Shown here piece by piece: positions 2,722-8,027 of a DNA stretch of 8,558 nt. Source of the DNA: Nitrospinota bacterium (GTDB lineage: Bacteria > Nitrospinota > Nitrospinia > UBA9942 > JAHJSF01). The stretch spans positions 1-8,558 of the forward strand of contig JAHJSF010000061.1 in assembly GCA_018830405.1 (NCBI GenBank). Reading direction: 5' to 3'. Below the pieces are notes generated by a model. It was not told the DNA's origin. It searched no databases and worked only from the letters and a program-made list of their open reading frames with translations. The stretch's first letter is position 1. The number at the start of each line of letters is the position of its first letter. A program made the translations under genes and the position numbers.

Positions 2722-2824
2722 TATGGAGTCGCATTCAAACGCCAACGTCGTCGGCTCCTCAACATACAACCCCCTATCCCCCTTTGTTAAGGGGGAATAA
2801 GGCATTTTGAAGGCAACTCCGTTC
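2721..2824 (-). repeat. MITE-like palindromic element A (shortened copy of B, inverted)
   Basis: This is a roughly 104-base element with imperfect terminal inverted repeats: GGAGTCGCATTCAAA on the left and TTTGAAGGCAACTCC on the right. It contains the hairpin TCCCCCTTTGTTAAGGGGGA. It aligns with the reverse complement of element B (5026-5177), including 39 identical bases (2764-2802 against 5084-5122). Relative to B it lacks about 36 bases in one arm and 12 in the other, which accounts for the length difference. It starts at the last base of the preceding TGA stop codon. It has no open frame of its own, so any mobility would need a transposase supplied elsewhere. Confidence 0.82.
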
Positions 2825-2923: not shown

Positions 2924-3000
2924 TATATTGGTAATCCCCCCTTTGGAAAATGGGGGAACTCCAATATACTCCCCCTTTAGAAAAGGGGGATGAAGGGGGA
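2924..3000. repeat. Two tandem C-run/G-run hairpins
   Basis: The first palindrome (2924-2968) has the outer arms TATATTGG and CCAATATA around CCCCCC and GGGGG. The second (2970-2990) is TCCCCCTTT, a three-base loop, then AAAGGGGGA. A further GGGGGA unit follows at 2995-3000. The same C-run/G-run motif lies in the core of elements A and B, and motifs of this kind are common dispersed repeats in deltaproteobacterial and Nitrospirota spacers. No T-tract follows on the + strand, so neither hairpin looks like a standard intrinsic terminator. Confidence 0.65.
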
Positions 3001-3037
3001 TTTGAAAACTGGGGGATGGAAATATGGAGTGGGTTGT

Positions 3038-3251
3038 GATTATAAAATCTCCCCCCACCCCTCTTTGCCAAGAGACTGTGTCGCAATGTCTGTTTTGTCA
3101 TTGCCCGGCTTGACCGGGCAATCCATGGTCCCTGATTCTATTAGACTTCTGGATTCCCGCTCCCCATTTTCATGAGGACAAGCTTTGCGGGAATGACAGG
3201 GAAAAGGATTGTGACACAGCCTCCAAAGAGGGGGAATAGGATAAAATAATC
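3038..3251. repeat. Nested inverted-repeat element C
   Basis: Three layers of symmetry can be seen. The outer arms are GATTATAAAATC (3038-3049) and GATAAAATAATC (3240-3251). The middle arms are CCCCTCTTTG followed by CTGTGTCGCAAT on the left (from 3058) and ATTGTGACACAG followed by CAAAGAGGGG on the right (to 3234). The core (about 3096-3198) begins TGTCATTGCCCGG and ends GCGGGAATGACA. It includes the perfect hairpin TTGCCCGG-loop-CCGGGCAA at 3101-3121 and a GGATTCCCGC/GCGGGAA pairing. Core sequences of this type recur widely in bacterial intergenic regions. The nesting suggests that one element inserted into another. Confidence 0.72.
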
Positions 3252-4431: not shown

Positions 4432-4449
4432 ATTATATTTATTATTGAT

Positions 4450-4454
4450 GGAGG
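4450..4454 (+). promoter_or_regulatory. Ribosome binding site deciding the gcvH GTG start
   Basis: GGAGG sits 5 bases before GTG 4460. It overlaps the in-frame ATG at 4448, so that ATG cannot use it, and nothing similar precedes that ATG. The GTG therefore looks like the true start. Confidence 0.65.
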
Positions 4455-4459
4455 ACAAA

Positions 4460-4849
4460 GTGGAATTTCCTGATGATCTGTTGTACACCAAAGAGCATGA
4501 ATGGATCAGGGTTGTTGGTGATACAGCTGTTATAGGCATAACCGATTATGCCCAGAGTCAACTCGGAGATATTGTTTATACGGAGCTACCCGACATTGGG
4601 ACTGAGTTTGCCCCGGGAAATGCCTTTTCAGTTGTAGAGTCTGTTAAAACCGTTTCTGACATCTATTCTCCTATCACCGGAACTATCGAAGAGGTCAATG
4701 ATAACCTTGAGTCCTCCCCCGAACAGATTAATGCCGAGCCTTATACGGGGGGCTGGATAGTTAAAATGACCATCTCAAACGCGGATGAATTAGAAAAACT
4801 ATTGTCTCCCGAAGAGTATGAGAGCCTTGTAAACGAAGAGTCGCACTAG
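4460..4849 (+). CDS. gcvH: Glycine cleavage system H-protein (lipoyl carrier)
   Basis: GcvH is the small shuttle protein of the glycine cleavage system. Its lipoyl-lysine arm moves the aminomethyl group from the P-protein to GcvT and is then re-oxidised by the L-protein. From GTG 4460 the product has 129 residues, the usual size. It begins MEFPDDLLYTKEHEWIRV, a standard GcvH opening, and continues GITDYAQSQLGDIVY. The lipoylation site is Lys63 in VVESVKTVSDIYSP, and the expected GGW motif lies in YTGGWIVKM. The C-terminus LLSPEEYESLVNEESH looks natural. An ATG at 4448 would add only four residues and has no ribosome site; longer frames run into gcvT. The spacer after gcvT is 28 bases. The AG of its TAG stop is also the first two bases of palindromic element D. 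Confidence 0.96.
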   Translation: MEFPDDLLYTKEHEWIRVVGDTAVIGITDYAQSQLGDIVYTELPDIGTEFAPGNAFSVVESVKTVSDIYSPITGTIEEVNDNLESSPEQINAEPYTGGWIVKMTISNADELEKLLSPEEYESLVNEESH

Positions 4850-5010
4850 TGCTTAATTGCCTAAGCCCTGCTATATTCGACCGGCCTTTGGTGCCCCTGG
4901 CTTTGTCGTCAATCCTCGCCATAGGCCCTGCTATGGCTGCGGTTGTCTTCGTGCCAGTTGCGCCAAATTCTTGGTCTCGATATCGACGCAGGCTTAGGCA
5001 ACTAAACACT
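4848..5010. repeat. MITE-like palindromic element D
   Basis: This is a 163-base element with terminal inverted repeats AGTGCTTAATTGCCTAAGCC (from 4848) and GGCTTAGGCAACTAAACACT (to 5010). The arms differ at two positions. The pairing continues inward with lower identity: TTTGGTGCCCCTGGC matches the complement of GCCAGTTGCGCCAAA, and the apex is ATAG-GCCCTG-CTAT near 4920-4934. The whole element could therefore fold into one long imperfect hairpin. It is unrelated to elements A and B. It encodes no protein, which fits a non-autonomous element. Its left end lies inside the gcvH stop codon. Confidence 0.85.
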
Positions 5011-5015
5011 GGGAG
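5011..5015 (+). promoter_or_regulatory. Orphan Shine-Dalgarno-like GGGAG between elements D and B
   Basis: GGGAG is in the only 15 bases (5011-5025) of the gcvH-gcvPA spacer that belong to neither palindrome. It is now 160 bases from the gcvPA ATG. Removing element B and one terminal AT would leave it 10 bases from an ATG. It is therefore a plausible ancestral gcvPA ribosome site. Whether it still works across the folded element is untested. Confidence 0.4.
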
Positions 5016-5025
5016 TATTTAATTG

Positions 5026-5177
5026 ATACGGAGTTGCATTCAAAATGATAACAAGGCGACAAGGAGGAAGCGACTCACAACCCCCTTATTCCCCCTTAAC
5101 AAAGGGGGATAGGGGGTTGTATATTGAGGAGCTGACAACGAAGGCAACACGGTTAGCGTTTGAAAGCGACTTCGTAT
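5026..5177 (+). repeat. MITE-like palindromic element B (full-length relative of A)
   Basis: This is a 152-base element whose ends pair over 19 positions: ATACGGAGTTGCATTCAAA at 5026-5044 against TTTGAAAGCGACTTCGTAT at 5159-5177. Sixteen pairs are Watson-Crick. Two would be G-U wobbles in + strand RNA, and one is a mismatch. The core is TTCCCCCTTAACAAAGGGGGATA, flanked by CAACCCCC and GGGGGTTG. Element A at 2721 is a shortened inverted copy. The element is bounded by the dinucleotide AT at both ends, a possible 2-base target duplication. Its right end forms the A and T of the gcvPA start codon. It has no open frame of its own. Confidence 0.85.
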
Positions 5178-6534
5178 GAGATACATTCCTAATACCGATT
5201 CTATTGTTGAAGAGATGCTGGGGGAGATAGGGGTTGATTCGGTTAGAGCCCTCCTTCGTCCAATACCCGACTCCCTGATTCTTGATAAACCGTTGGATTT
5301 GCCTTCGGCTATGTCAGAATCGGACATTGTCAAACATATGGCCAAGATAACCAGTTTGGCTGGTATACACCTCTCCTTTCTCGGCGGCGGCTACTATGAC
5401 CACCTTATTCCGGCGGCCGTTAAACATATTATCGGCCGTTCCGAATTTTATACCGCCTATACCCCCTATCAACCGGAGATAAGCCAGGGGACCCTTCAGG
5501 CCATATACGAATTTCAGACCATGATATGTCAGTTGACTGGCATGGAGCTTGCCAACGCCTCGATGTATGACGGGGCCTCCGCCCTAGCCGAGGCGGCCAT
5601 TATGGCTGTTAGGATATCCAAAAAGAAAGAGATTATACTCCCTGAAAATATCCACCCTGAATATAGGGAGACGGTTAAGACCTACTGCCGTTTCCTTGAT
5701 ATTGTAATCAAGGAGATTCCTGTCGGCTCCGACGGGCGGATAGATGTTAAGGTTTTAAAGGAAAATATTTCAGCTGATACCGCTGCCGTGGCTGTTCAGA
5801 ACCCCAACTTCTTTGGAGTTGTGGAAGGTCTCGAAGAAATTTCGGCTGTAATTAAAGATGCCGGGGCCTTATTTATAGGGGTAGTGGTTGAGCCGGTCTC
5901 ACTCGGCATCCTCAAACCCCCCGGTGATTTTGGGGCGGATATTGTCGTTGGAGAAGGGCAGGCCTTTGGTAATCCGATGAACTTTGGTGGTCCCGGAGTA
6001 GGCTTCTTCGCCTCAAGGGATAAATATATGCGTCAGATGCCGGGGCGTCTGATTGGTCAGACAGTCGACAAGAATGGAAAGAGGGGCTATGTCCTAACCC
6101 TCTCTACCCGTGAACAGCATATCCGCAGGGAGAAGGCAACCTCAAATATATGCAGCAACCAGTCTTTATGTGCCTTGGCCGCAGCGGTTCATCTGTCGCT
6201 GCTCGGCAAGGGGGGGCTGAAGAAGGTTGCCCTGCTCAACCTAAGATTGGCCGATTACGCCAAAGAAAAATTAGGATCTGTTAAGGGGTGCAAGCTTAGA
6301 TTTAGTTCACAAATATTTAATGAGTTTGTAGTAGAACTTCCGATTCCGGCTGAAGAATTTAGCCGAAGACTTTTGCTAGAAAAAAATATAGTTGGAGGTC
6401 TTCCACTCGGGAGATTCTTTAAAGGGATGGAAAAGTCTCTCCTAGTTACACTGACCGAGAAGATCTCCAAAGAAGATATAGACACCTTAACCGAGTCCTT
6501 GAATGGTCTCCTTAATGGAGGCGGGGGACAATGA
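5176..6534 (+). CDS. gcvPA: Glycine dehydrogenase (decarboxylating) subunit 1, P-protein alpha
   Basis: GcvPA is one half of the split P-protein. With GcvPB it makes the PLP enzyme that decarboxylates glycine and loads the aminomethyl group onto GcvH. The product has 452 residues, normal for the subunit. It opens with the family's MRYIPNTD and then shows FLGGGYYDHLIPAAV, YTPYQPEISQGTLQAIYEFQ, LANASMYDGASALAEA, AVQNPNFFGVVE, MNFGGPGVGFFA and TREQHIRREKATSNICSNQS. The subunit lacks the PLP lysine, which GcvPB supplies. The start is certain: the upstream frame closes at TGA 5161-5163, and the next in-frame ATG (5215) would remove the conserved N-terminus. There is no Shine-Dalgarno sequence just before this ATG, because the 150 bases upstream are element B and the A and T of the codon are the element's last two bases. 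It overlaps gcvPB by ATGA. Confidence 0.96.
   Translation: MRYIPNTDSIVEEMLGEIGVDSVRALLRPIPDSLILDKPLDLPSAMSESDIVKHMAKITSLAGIHLSFLGGGYYDHLIPAAVKHIIGRSEFYTAYTPYQPEISQGTLQAIYEFQTMICQLTGMELANASMYDGASALAEAAIMAVRISKKKEIILPENIHPEYRETVKTYCRFLDIVIKEIPVGSDGRIDVKVLKENISADTAAVAVQNPNFFGVVEGLEEISAVIKDAGALFIGVVVEPVSLGILKPPGDFGADIVVGEGQAFGNPMNFGGPGVGFFASRDKYMRQMPGRLIGQTVDKNGKRGYVLTLSTREQHIRREKATSNICSNQSLCALAAAVHLSLLGKGGLKKVALLNLRLADYAKEKLGSVKGCKLRFSSQIFNEFVVELPIPAEEFSRRLLLEKNIVGGLPLGRFFKGMEKSLLVTLTEKISKEDIDTLTESLNGLLNGGGGQ
6517..6521 (+). promoter_or_regulatory. Ribosome binding site for gcvPB inside gcvPA
   Basis: GGAGG lies 9 bases before ATG 6531, within the last codons of gcvPA. A GGGGG closer in (6523-6527) may contribute. 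Together with the ATGA stop/start overlap it indicates coupled translation, which suits two subunits of one enzyme. Confidence 0.6.
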
Positions 6535-8027
6535 GAGAGAATGTCGGAGCGAGGGGACTGATATTCAACGAACCGCTAATATTTGATATAAGCCGAGAGG
6601 GGAGAGATGGCGCGTCTATTCCCGATGGGGTAGGACTACCTGAAAAAAAGATAGAGTCTCTCCTTCCTAAGGGGAGCCTTCGGGACGATATAGAAGGATT
6701 TCCCTCTCTTAGTGAGGTTGATGTAGTTAGGCACTTTACCCGTCTTTCTCAATGGAACTATGGTTTGGACGGAGGCTTTTATCCACTCGGTTCCTGTACC
6801 ATGAAGTATAACCCGAAGATAAATGAAGATATGGCCTCTCTGCCGGCCCTGAATAATCTCCACCCCTATGCCCCTGAAGGGCTTGCTCAGGGGGCGCTCC
6901 GGATTATGTATGAACTCTCTGACTACCTAGCCGAGATTTCCGGTTTGGCCAAGGTTTCTCTACAGCCATCGGCCGGGGCCCAGGGGGAGTTTGCTGGTAT
7001 CCTAATTATAAAGAATTATTTTGAGTCTATAGGAGAAAAGAGGCATAAGATAATCGTTCCCGACTCTGCCCACGGCACCAACCCCGCCTCCTCGGCCCTC
7101 TGTGGTTATCAGGTTATTGAGGTTAAATCCGGCAGTGATGGTCTTATTGACCCGGCCGAGATTGAAAAACATATGGACGATGATGTGGCGGCCATAATGC
7201 TTACCAATCCGAATACCTTGGGACTTTTTGAGAGTCAGATATTAAAGATAACCGAGATCATCCATAAAAAAGGGGGATTGGTCTACATGGATGGGGCCAA
7301 CCTTAATGCCCTTATGGGGATAGTCAAACCGGCTGACATGGGGGTCGATATTATGCACTTCAACCTTCATAAGACATTTTCAACCCCTCATGGGGGAGGA
7401 GGCCCGGGGAGCGGCCCGGTAGGGGTTACTAAAAAAATAGCCCCCTTTCTCCCGACTCCTGTAATTGTAGAGAATAATGGTAATTATAGTTTCCAATATG
7501 GTAATAAGGATTCTATAGGCAGATTGCGAGCCTTCTACGGCAACTTTGGGGTAATGGTTAAGGCCTATGTCTATATCCGCTCTATGGGGGGGGATGGACT
7601 TAAAAAGGCGAGCGAAACGGCAGTGGTCAATGCCAATTATATCAAGGAAAAACTGAAGGGAATCTACCACCTCCCCTACGACCGTGAATGCATGCATGAA
7701 TGTGTCTTTTCCGATAAGATTCAGGGGGAGAATGATGTTTCTACCCTCGACATTGCCAAGGCGATTATCGACAGAGGTTTTCATCCCCCGACCATCTATT
7801 TCCCCCTCATTGTTCATGGGGCGATTATGATGGAGCCGACCGAAACAGAGGGGAAGGAGACCCTTGATTCCTTTATAGAGGCCCTTAAAGATATTGCCGC
7901 TAAGGCCAAGGAAGACCCTGGAAGCCTTAAGGCCTCTCCCGAGAAGCCTAAGGTTGGACGTCTCGATGAGACCCAGGCCGCCCGGAACCCCAAATTGAGG
8001 TGGAGAGCGGGGCAAAAAGATGGTTAA
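6531..8027 (+). CDS. gcvPB: Glycine dehydrogenase (decarboxylating) subunit 2, P-protein beta
   Basis: GcvPB is the PLP-binding half of the glycine decarboxylase. It pairs with GcvPA, and the complex gives CO2 and aminomethyl-lipoyl GcvH. It has 498 residues, slightly longer than the common ~485 because of a short N-terminal lead before LIFNEPLIFDISREGRDG. Seen in order are FYPLGSCTMKYNPKIN (residues 83-98), LQPSAGAQGEFAG, the PLP-site region PDSAHGTNPASSA, and VYMDGANLNALMG. Lys281 in FNLHKTFSTPHGGGGPG is the expected Schiff-base lysine. The C-terminal domain has PPTIYFPLIVHGAIMMEPTETE. The ATG overlaps the gcvPA TGA. The split PA/PB form is usual in Gram-positives, Thermotoga and several delta- or Nitrospirota-type lineages, while E. 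coli has a single fused GcvP. The reading frame is intact through an 8-G run near 7586-7593. Confidence 0.97.
   Translation: MRENVGARGLIFNEPLIFDISREGRDGASIPDGVGLPEKKIESLLPKGSLRDDIEGFPSLSEVDVVRHFTRLSQWNYGLDGGFYPLGSCTMKYNPKINEDMASLPALNNLHPYAPEGLAQGALRIMYELSDYLAEISGLAKVSLQPSAGAQGEFAGILIIKNYFESIGEKRHKIIVPDSAHGTNPASSALCGYQVIEVKSGSDGLIDPAEIEKHMDDDVAAIMLTNPNTLGLFESQILKITEIIHKKGGLVYMDGANLNALMGIVKPADMGVDIMHFNLHKTFSTPHGGGGPGSGPVGVTKKIAPFLPTPVIVENNGNYSFQYGNKDSIGRLRAFYGNFGVMVKAYVYIRSMGGDGLKKASETAVVNANYIKEKLKGIYHLPYDRECMHECVFSDKIQGENDVSTLDIAKAIIDRGFHPPTIYFPLIVHGAIMMEPTETEGKETLDSFIEALKDIAAKAKEDPGSLKASPEKPKVGRLDETQAARNPKLRWRAGQKDG

Follow-up and report, generated by a model that had tools for sequence, protein, structure and literature searches.

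In enterobacteria, the non-autonomous intergenic repeats ERIC (RU-1, 127 bp) and RU-2 (168 bp) are palindromic, form stable stem-loops and carry a terminal TA, with duplication of a TA (PMC2759123). Transcripts bearing Correia elements are cut by RNase III, and ERIC has been reviewed as having effects on mRNA level (PMC10969869), REPs being repeats of 20-40 bp (PMC3733652). For one element of the IS630/Tc1/mariner group, it is established that insertion occurs at TA and duplicates it (PMC2170065), and in phage T4 genes 25 and 38 have split ribosome-binding sites, in which a hairpin is located between the Shine-Dalgarno sequence and the AUG (PMC3014915).

Here we describe two palindromic elements, D and B, that lie between gcvH and gcvPA at a glycine-cleavage locus of Nitrospinota. 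D and B are two new families of the known MITE-like kind, and it is highly probable that a spacer of about 16 nt was filled by two independent MITE-like insertions, which share the flanking codons by way of their targets, neither element being a designed regulator.

Results and discussion

The window, that is the whole stretch of DNA that was analysed (8558 bases, contig C27 of a genome of 1.42 Mb in 185 contigs, 87% complete), contains the glycine-cleavage genes gcvT, gcvH, gcvPA and gcvPB. On the plus strand, gcvH (4448..4849; NCBIfam TIGR00527/NF002270) ends with the stop codon TAG at 4847-4849, gcvPA (5176..6534; NCBIfam NF001696) begins with the ATG at 5176-5178, at a distance of 326 nt from that stop, and gcvPB (6531..8027; NCBIfam NF003346) overlaps gcvPA by 4 nt. 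The closest gcvPA among named relatives is that of Nitrospinaceae, and the nearest comparison genomes are six from another family (f2) of the same order. In the junction sequences, the C-terminus of the gcvH product (...NEESH*) aligns with ...EEESQ* of the same-order relatives, with the stop at the homologous codon. Upstream of gcvT (2932-3235) there are more C-rich inverted repeats, and a separate palindrome is found there, which contains GTCATTCCCGC (3187-3197, minus strand) and has the arms ACTGTGTCGCAA and TTGTGACACAGC.

The preliminary description had placed element D at 4848..5010 and element B at 5026..5177 (neither is assigned to a strand), and these limits proved to be right: both are strong palindromes, their overlaps with the TAG of gcvH and the ATG of gcvPA can be read directly from the positions, and exactly 15 bases (5011-5025) separate them. 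The body of D, GTGCTTAATTGC...GCAACTAAACAC (4849-5009), is flanked by TA (4847-4848) and TG (5010-5011), and the arms of the element (4848-4867 and 4991-5010) are 90% complementary, whereas the body of B, CGGAG...CTTCG (5029-5174), lies between TA (5027-5028) and TA (5175-5176). Folded as RNA, D reaches -71.9 kcal/mol against a mean of -45.4 for shuffled sequences (z -7.4), and B -70.1 kcal/mol against -35.0 (z -8.9). Both have the features of MITEs, namely multiple dispersed copies, terminal inverted repeats and a body (161 nt in D, 146 nt in B) too short for a transposase gene.

A search for copies in the whole genome, together with their flanks, bore out the proposal that D and B are dispersed non-autonomous palindromic elements inserted in an operon spacer. 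For D there are at least 42 match rows, including 26 that run from end to end of D with at least 78% identity and 8 from a longer subfamily of about 190-200 nt with 67-71% identity, the others being partial (mean pairwise identity in a set of 26 D copies, 0.90); for B there are at least 63, about a dozen of them near full-length. Beyond the sampled stretches only the best 40 candidates were scored, so these counts are to be taken as minima. The terminal 16-mer of B, with up to 2 mismatches, occurs 63 times, compared with 2 for the reversed control, and the stems of the D copies stay complementary (1189 Watson-Crick pairs in 1223 cells counted). Neither the full D nor the arms of B were found in the 76 other Nitrospinota genomes searched, and a scan of the window against Rfam, which covers RNA families only, gave no match.

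The two elements had been regarded as unrelated, and this holds for their arms, but not for all their modules, since a C-rich core hairpin is nested in both. This hairpin, ACAACCCCC...GGGGGTTGT (5077..5120, no strand assigned), sits at the tip of B, as in most B copies, and in the long D copies it replaces the usual tip CATAGGCCCTGCTATG (e.g. C104:4149-4342, with copies on C23, C29 and C39), besides being found free-standing in genomes of the same order. B copies that do not have the core are located at L006, L052 and C23:12230; the one at L006 (554-634) has an 8-bp direct repeat, TGTTTAAA, at its flanks in place of the TA of the other copies.

An ancestral operon leader, for which the same spacer would be expected in relatives without dispersed copies elsewhere, was rejected, given that no relative shares the spacer sequence. 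In most Nitrospinaceae the gcvH-gcvPA spacer measures 18-35 nt; in family f5 the range is 11-16 nt, and some spacers exceed these lengths. In five genomes of the same order (G001, G003-G006) it is 59-132 nt long and differs in sequence from one genome to the next; G002 gave no gcvPA match. For four of these five inserts almost no shuffled version folds as well (z -2.8 to -5.1), and the fifth, L064, has a z of -1.6, with 14/200 shuffles as good. In the sampled same-order family, a strong inverted repeat is present in 143/684 co-directional spacers (1 in shuffled spacers), the corresponding figures being 20/219 in the genome of the window and 3/81 in the Nitrospinaceae loci sampled. Because spacers with inverted repeats are so common, the recurrent filling of the gcvH-gcvPA spacer, which was not a randomly chosen one, is notable without being extreme. 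At the Nitrospinaceae loci L079, L089 and L097, a CTCC located immediately after the stop codon can pair with the GGAG in the final codons of gcvH, and this would point to gcvPA being translationally coupled to gcvH in Nitrospinaceae.

The flanks of the copies define the target preferences of the two families. In 31-32 oriented copies of D the consensus is (C/T)TA-[GTGC...CAC]-T(A/G)G, with T at -2 in 25/31 and A at -1 in 24/31 on the left, and T at +1 in 28/32 and G at +3 in 22/32 on the right, the preferred sites being CTRG/CTAG-like. For B the consensus is ATA-[CGGAG...CTTCG]-TAT, and a count by eye gives about 15 copies, out of 21 distinct ones, that have TA at each side. TA on both sides was seen in 6/31 D copies, one TA being paired with one TG in 14 copies, and a check of the occupied sites for target-site duplication found identical dinucleotides on both sides in 6/31. 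Furthermore, 14 of the 20 D copies with a left TA have no right TA, a negative association (Fisher p = 0.03). Given that TA stands on both sides so rarely and that the two TAs are negatively associated, the chemistry of D could be either TA duplication or insertion adjacent to CT that duplicates no target.

Movement of D by an IS630/mariner-like transposase, into CTAG and with TA duplication, is a tentative possibility to which we give somewhat less than an even chance. IS630 is reportedly site-specific for the TA in CTAG, and the CTAG-like flanks of D match the target named in two titles that PMC2170065 lists among its references (Tenzen and Ohtsubo 1991; Tenzen et al. 1990). However, the low number of copies with identical dinucleotides and the negative association of left and right TA argue against this route, and no DDE_3 (IS630-type) transposase gene was found in the 87%-complete genome. 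Strand exchange beside CT, without target duplication, carried out by a REP-associated Y1 transposase (RAYT) or through a circular intermediate, appears rather unlikely. RAYTs cut next to CT, the genome encodes one of them, and CT abuts D on either strand in 18/31 copies against 12% expected (p ~1e-9, for a pattern picked post hoc), with D ends often showing TA at one side and TG at the other. On the other hand, D-like ends are absent from the vicinity of the RAYT and IS110-type genes of this genome, and by this route gcvH would have been without its homologous stop before the insertion.

Two transposase genes were considered as mobilisers of D and B and rejected. The RAYT, the only one found (L182, 1390-2350), has inverted GGGGTCAGGTCTTGCAATG repeats on both sides, which are likely to be its own substrate, and is without D or B ends; an IS110-type transposase gene is also present, likewise without such ends. 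Searches for DDE_3, RAYT and IS110-type genes found no parental IS sharing the termini of the elements, and the matches to the B terminus give no obvious IS-sized pair.

The dispersed copies, the flank preferences and the intact codons are seen directly, and from them we infer an empty site, in which a starting spacer of about 16 nt would have read CAC TAG GGAGTATTTAATTGAT ATG. D would have entered the CTAG at the gcvH stop and B the TATG at the gcvPA start. As the first base of D is G, the sequence T-A-[G] would still have been read as a TAG stop, and the TA left at the right end of B, presumably by duplication, would have kept the ATG together with the native TG, the A of the present start codon belonging to the TA that flanks B. 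Selection would have retained only those insertions that spared both proteins, the outcome being hairpins between two genes of one apparent operon.

Between the two elements, GGGAGTATTTAATTG (5011..5025, plus strand) would be a remnant of the native spacer and would carry the putative Shine-Dalgarno sequence of gcvPA, GGGAG, as judged from virtual removal of D and B. When one TA is kept per site, such removal leaves 16 nt from stop to start and places GGAG 12 nt upstream of the ATG; the short junction reconstructed in this way would be the ancestral one. Removal of D with the right-hand G kept would instead fuse gcvH in frame to gcvPA; because the right dinucleotide is TG and not TA, an A-to-G change or some other mechanism is needed for D.

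The position of the copies relative to predicted genes was determined in a 412-kb sample of the genome, partly made up of loci picked for holding D or B, which contains 35 D and 23 B copies and in which genes were called by a simple codon-usage score and not by a trained gene finder. In all, 24 gene 3' ends lie no more than 300 bp from D; at 7 of them the flanking TA and the first G of D form a TAG stop, and at 4 the stop codon is inside D. D stands at a TAG stop in 7/35 copies (20%), and CTAG sites taken outside coding DNA and away from the elements (31 intergenic and 6 at stop codons) are at stops in 6/37 cases (16%); given this similarity, target preference and selection against gene disruption suffice to explain the arrangement. 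As to B, it restores an ATG (TA|TG) before gcvPA, ruvC and a gene for an EnvC-like peptidase, and in the case of ruvC the stop codon of yebC adjoins the opposite end of the element. The elements share codons with the genes because their preferred landing sequences resemble stop and start codons. Thus, where the packing of a core metabolic operon without damage had been thought unusual, the flanking proteins are indeed intact, but the arrangement is explained by target preference and purifying selection. D and B are stacked by chance, and are tolerated since their targets coincide with codon edges.

Some other copies are worth describing. A degraded copy of the B family, third in the window (2724-2821), begins 2 nt past the TGA of the upstream gene (TGA-TA), repeating the arrangement of a stop followed by TA. 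Predicted genes at L186, L187 and L194 enter B by about 20 nt and stop inside it, so that B would supply C-terminal residues. At L003, L020 and L025, tRNA genes for Leu, Ala and Glu have a D copy at a distance of 2-5 nt, and none of these genes is entered. The D copies at L012 and L017 have the same left flank, tgtttttacgggattaactt, and different right flanks; L017 is close to a contig end, and the shared flank may be an assembly effect.

With B inserted, the presumed ribosome-binding site of gcvPA lies 160 nt ahead of the ATG instead of 12 nt, and the sequence immediately preceding this ATG contains no good Shine-Dalgarno match. Equilibrium folding predicts that the first two bases of the gcvPA start codon, A and U, are paired at the foot of the B stem. 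As modelled, B may lower the initiation of gcvPA translation, or initiation may be coupled to gcvH or require the hairpin to fold out.

The last of these possibilities corresponds to a split ribosome-binding site, in which the palindrome folds out and the Shine-Dalgarno sequence and the AUG act as if they were adjacent, as in T4 genes 25 and 38. Such an explanation, which is compatible with a MITE origin and competes with other readings on function only, is in our view distinctly unlikely. At this locus GGAG precedes B and, once the element is virtually removed, is 12 nt away from the ATG; in the five same-order genomes the final codons of gcvH contain a GAGGAG-type run, which is followed by a different insert and then by the ATG. 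However, even with the insert taken out, 17-25 nt separate this run from the ATG in L062, L063 and L065. Among hairpin-abutted starts, a Shine-Dalgarno match of at least 5 nt was found in 10/57 after virtual removal, compared with 4/57 as they stand and 9.6% in controls, but the difference from the control windows has p = 0.043, the paired comparison is 9 versus 3 (p = 0.15), and at a 4-nt threshold virtual removal gives no more matches than the control. In this comparison the thresholds were set by us, and the starts include several TTG or GTG codons that may be miscalls. The predicted pairing of the A and U of this start codon in the B stem base also speaks against a split site at gcvPA, as does size, given that the T4 structures take out about 16 nt of spacing and B about 150 nt. 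The split-site signal is therefore weak, a lead and not a result. Extended to the whole order, the idea would be that palindromic elements repeatedly insert between ribosome-binding site and start and are tolerated by folding out, with separate colonisations of the gcvH-gcvPA spacer, each by another insert, in every one of the six genomes of the order in which this junction was read; we regard this as even more doubtful.

The preliminary description also suggested that the two hairpins regulate the ratio of H- to P-protein, through attenuation or RNA processing. In a wider form, this ratio would be set by the hairpins, whether through attenuation, through processing by RNase or through stabilisation of the mRNA, in the manner of those of ERIC and Correia elements; we consider this unlikely. 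Such a role would fit the position of D and B between co-directional genes of an operon and their folding far better than shuffled sequences, and 6 of 49 stem pairs of D have changes on both sides. Template switching can also yield complementary change in DNA palindromes. If RNA were the selected molecule, G-U pairs on the transcribed strand of D would be expected to exceed A-C, and the counts are 9 versus 8, which is no signal of RNA-strand selection, in a sample so small that a modest effect is possible. Precedents are to be found in the RNase III cleavage of Correia transcripts and the mRNA-level effects of ERIC (PMC10969869). Against a regulatory spacer, the copies are dispersed beside many different genes, the different inserts of relatives leave no conserved leader, no intrinsic terminator (a G+C-rich hairpin followed by a U run) was found in 4700-5300, and promoter matches at the spacer are at chance level only. 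The proposed role in the H:P ratio thus finds no positive support in terminators, promoters or an RNA-strand signature in D, and the gcvH-gcvPA spacer is probably not a designed regulatory leader. An incidental effect of the hairpins on gcvPA expression would nevertheless be likely.

Conclusions

Two independent MITE-like insertions explain how a compact operon can take up two mobile palindromes harmlessly: the preferred landing sequences match stop and start codons, which are then restored by the ends of the elements. With about one-fifth of its co-directional gene pairs bearing a strong inverted repeat in the spacer, the sampled same-order lineage is a natural set for studying the effects of hairpins on translation, and the recurrent filling of this spacer within the order, together with the split-site idea, are the parts that deserve a laboratory test.

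In comparison with known systems, the T4 split sites are short and native to phage genes, whereas B is mobile, about 150 nt long and putative in its effect. REPs and the RAYT system have in common with D and B the extragenic hairpins and the presence of one RAYT in the genome, but D and B are longer than REPs and the RAYT is flanked by GGGGTCAGGTCTTGCAATG, not by D or B. Correia elements and RUP are, like D and B, described as MITE-like repeats adjoining genes, although for D and B no mobilising IS was found among the DDE_3, RAYT and IS110-type genes searched. By their description, ERIC and RU-2 are similar to D and B in size, palindromy, stem-loops and TA, whereas D and B belong to another host phylum, share a nested core and overlap the start and stop codons of the neighbouring genes.
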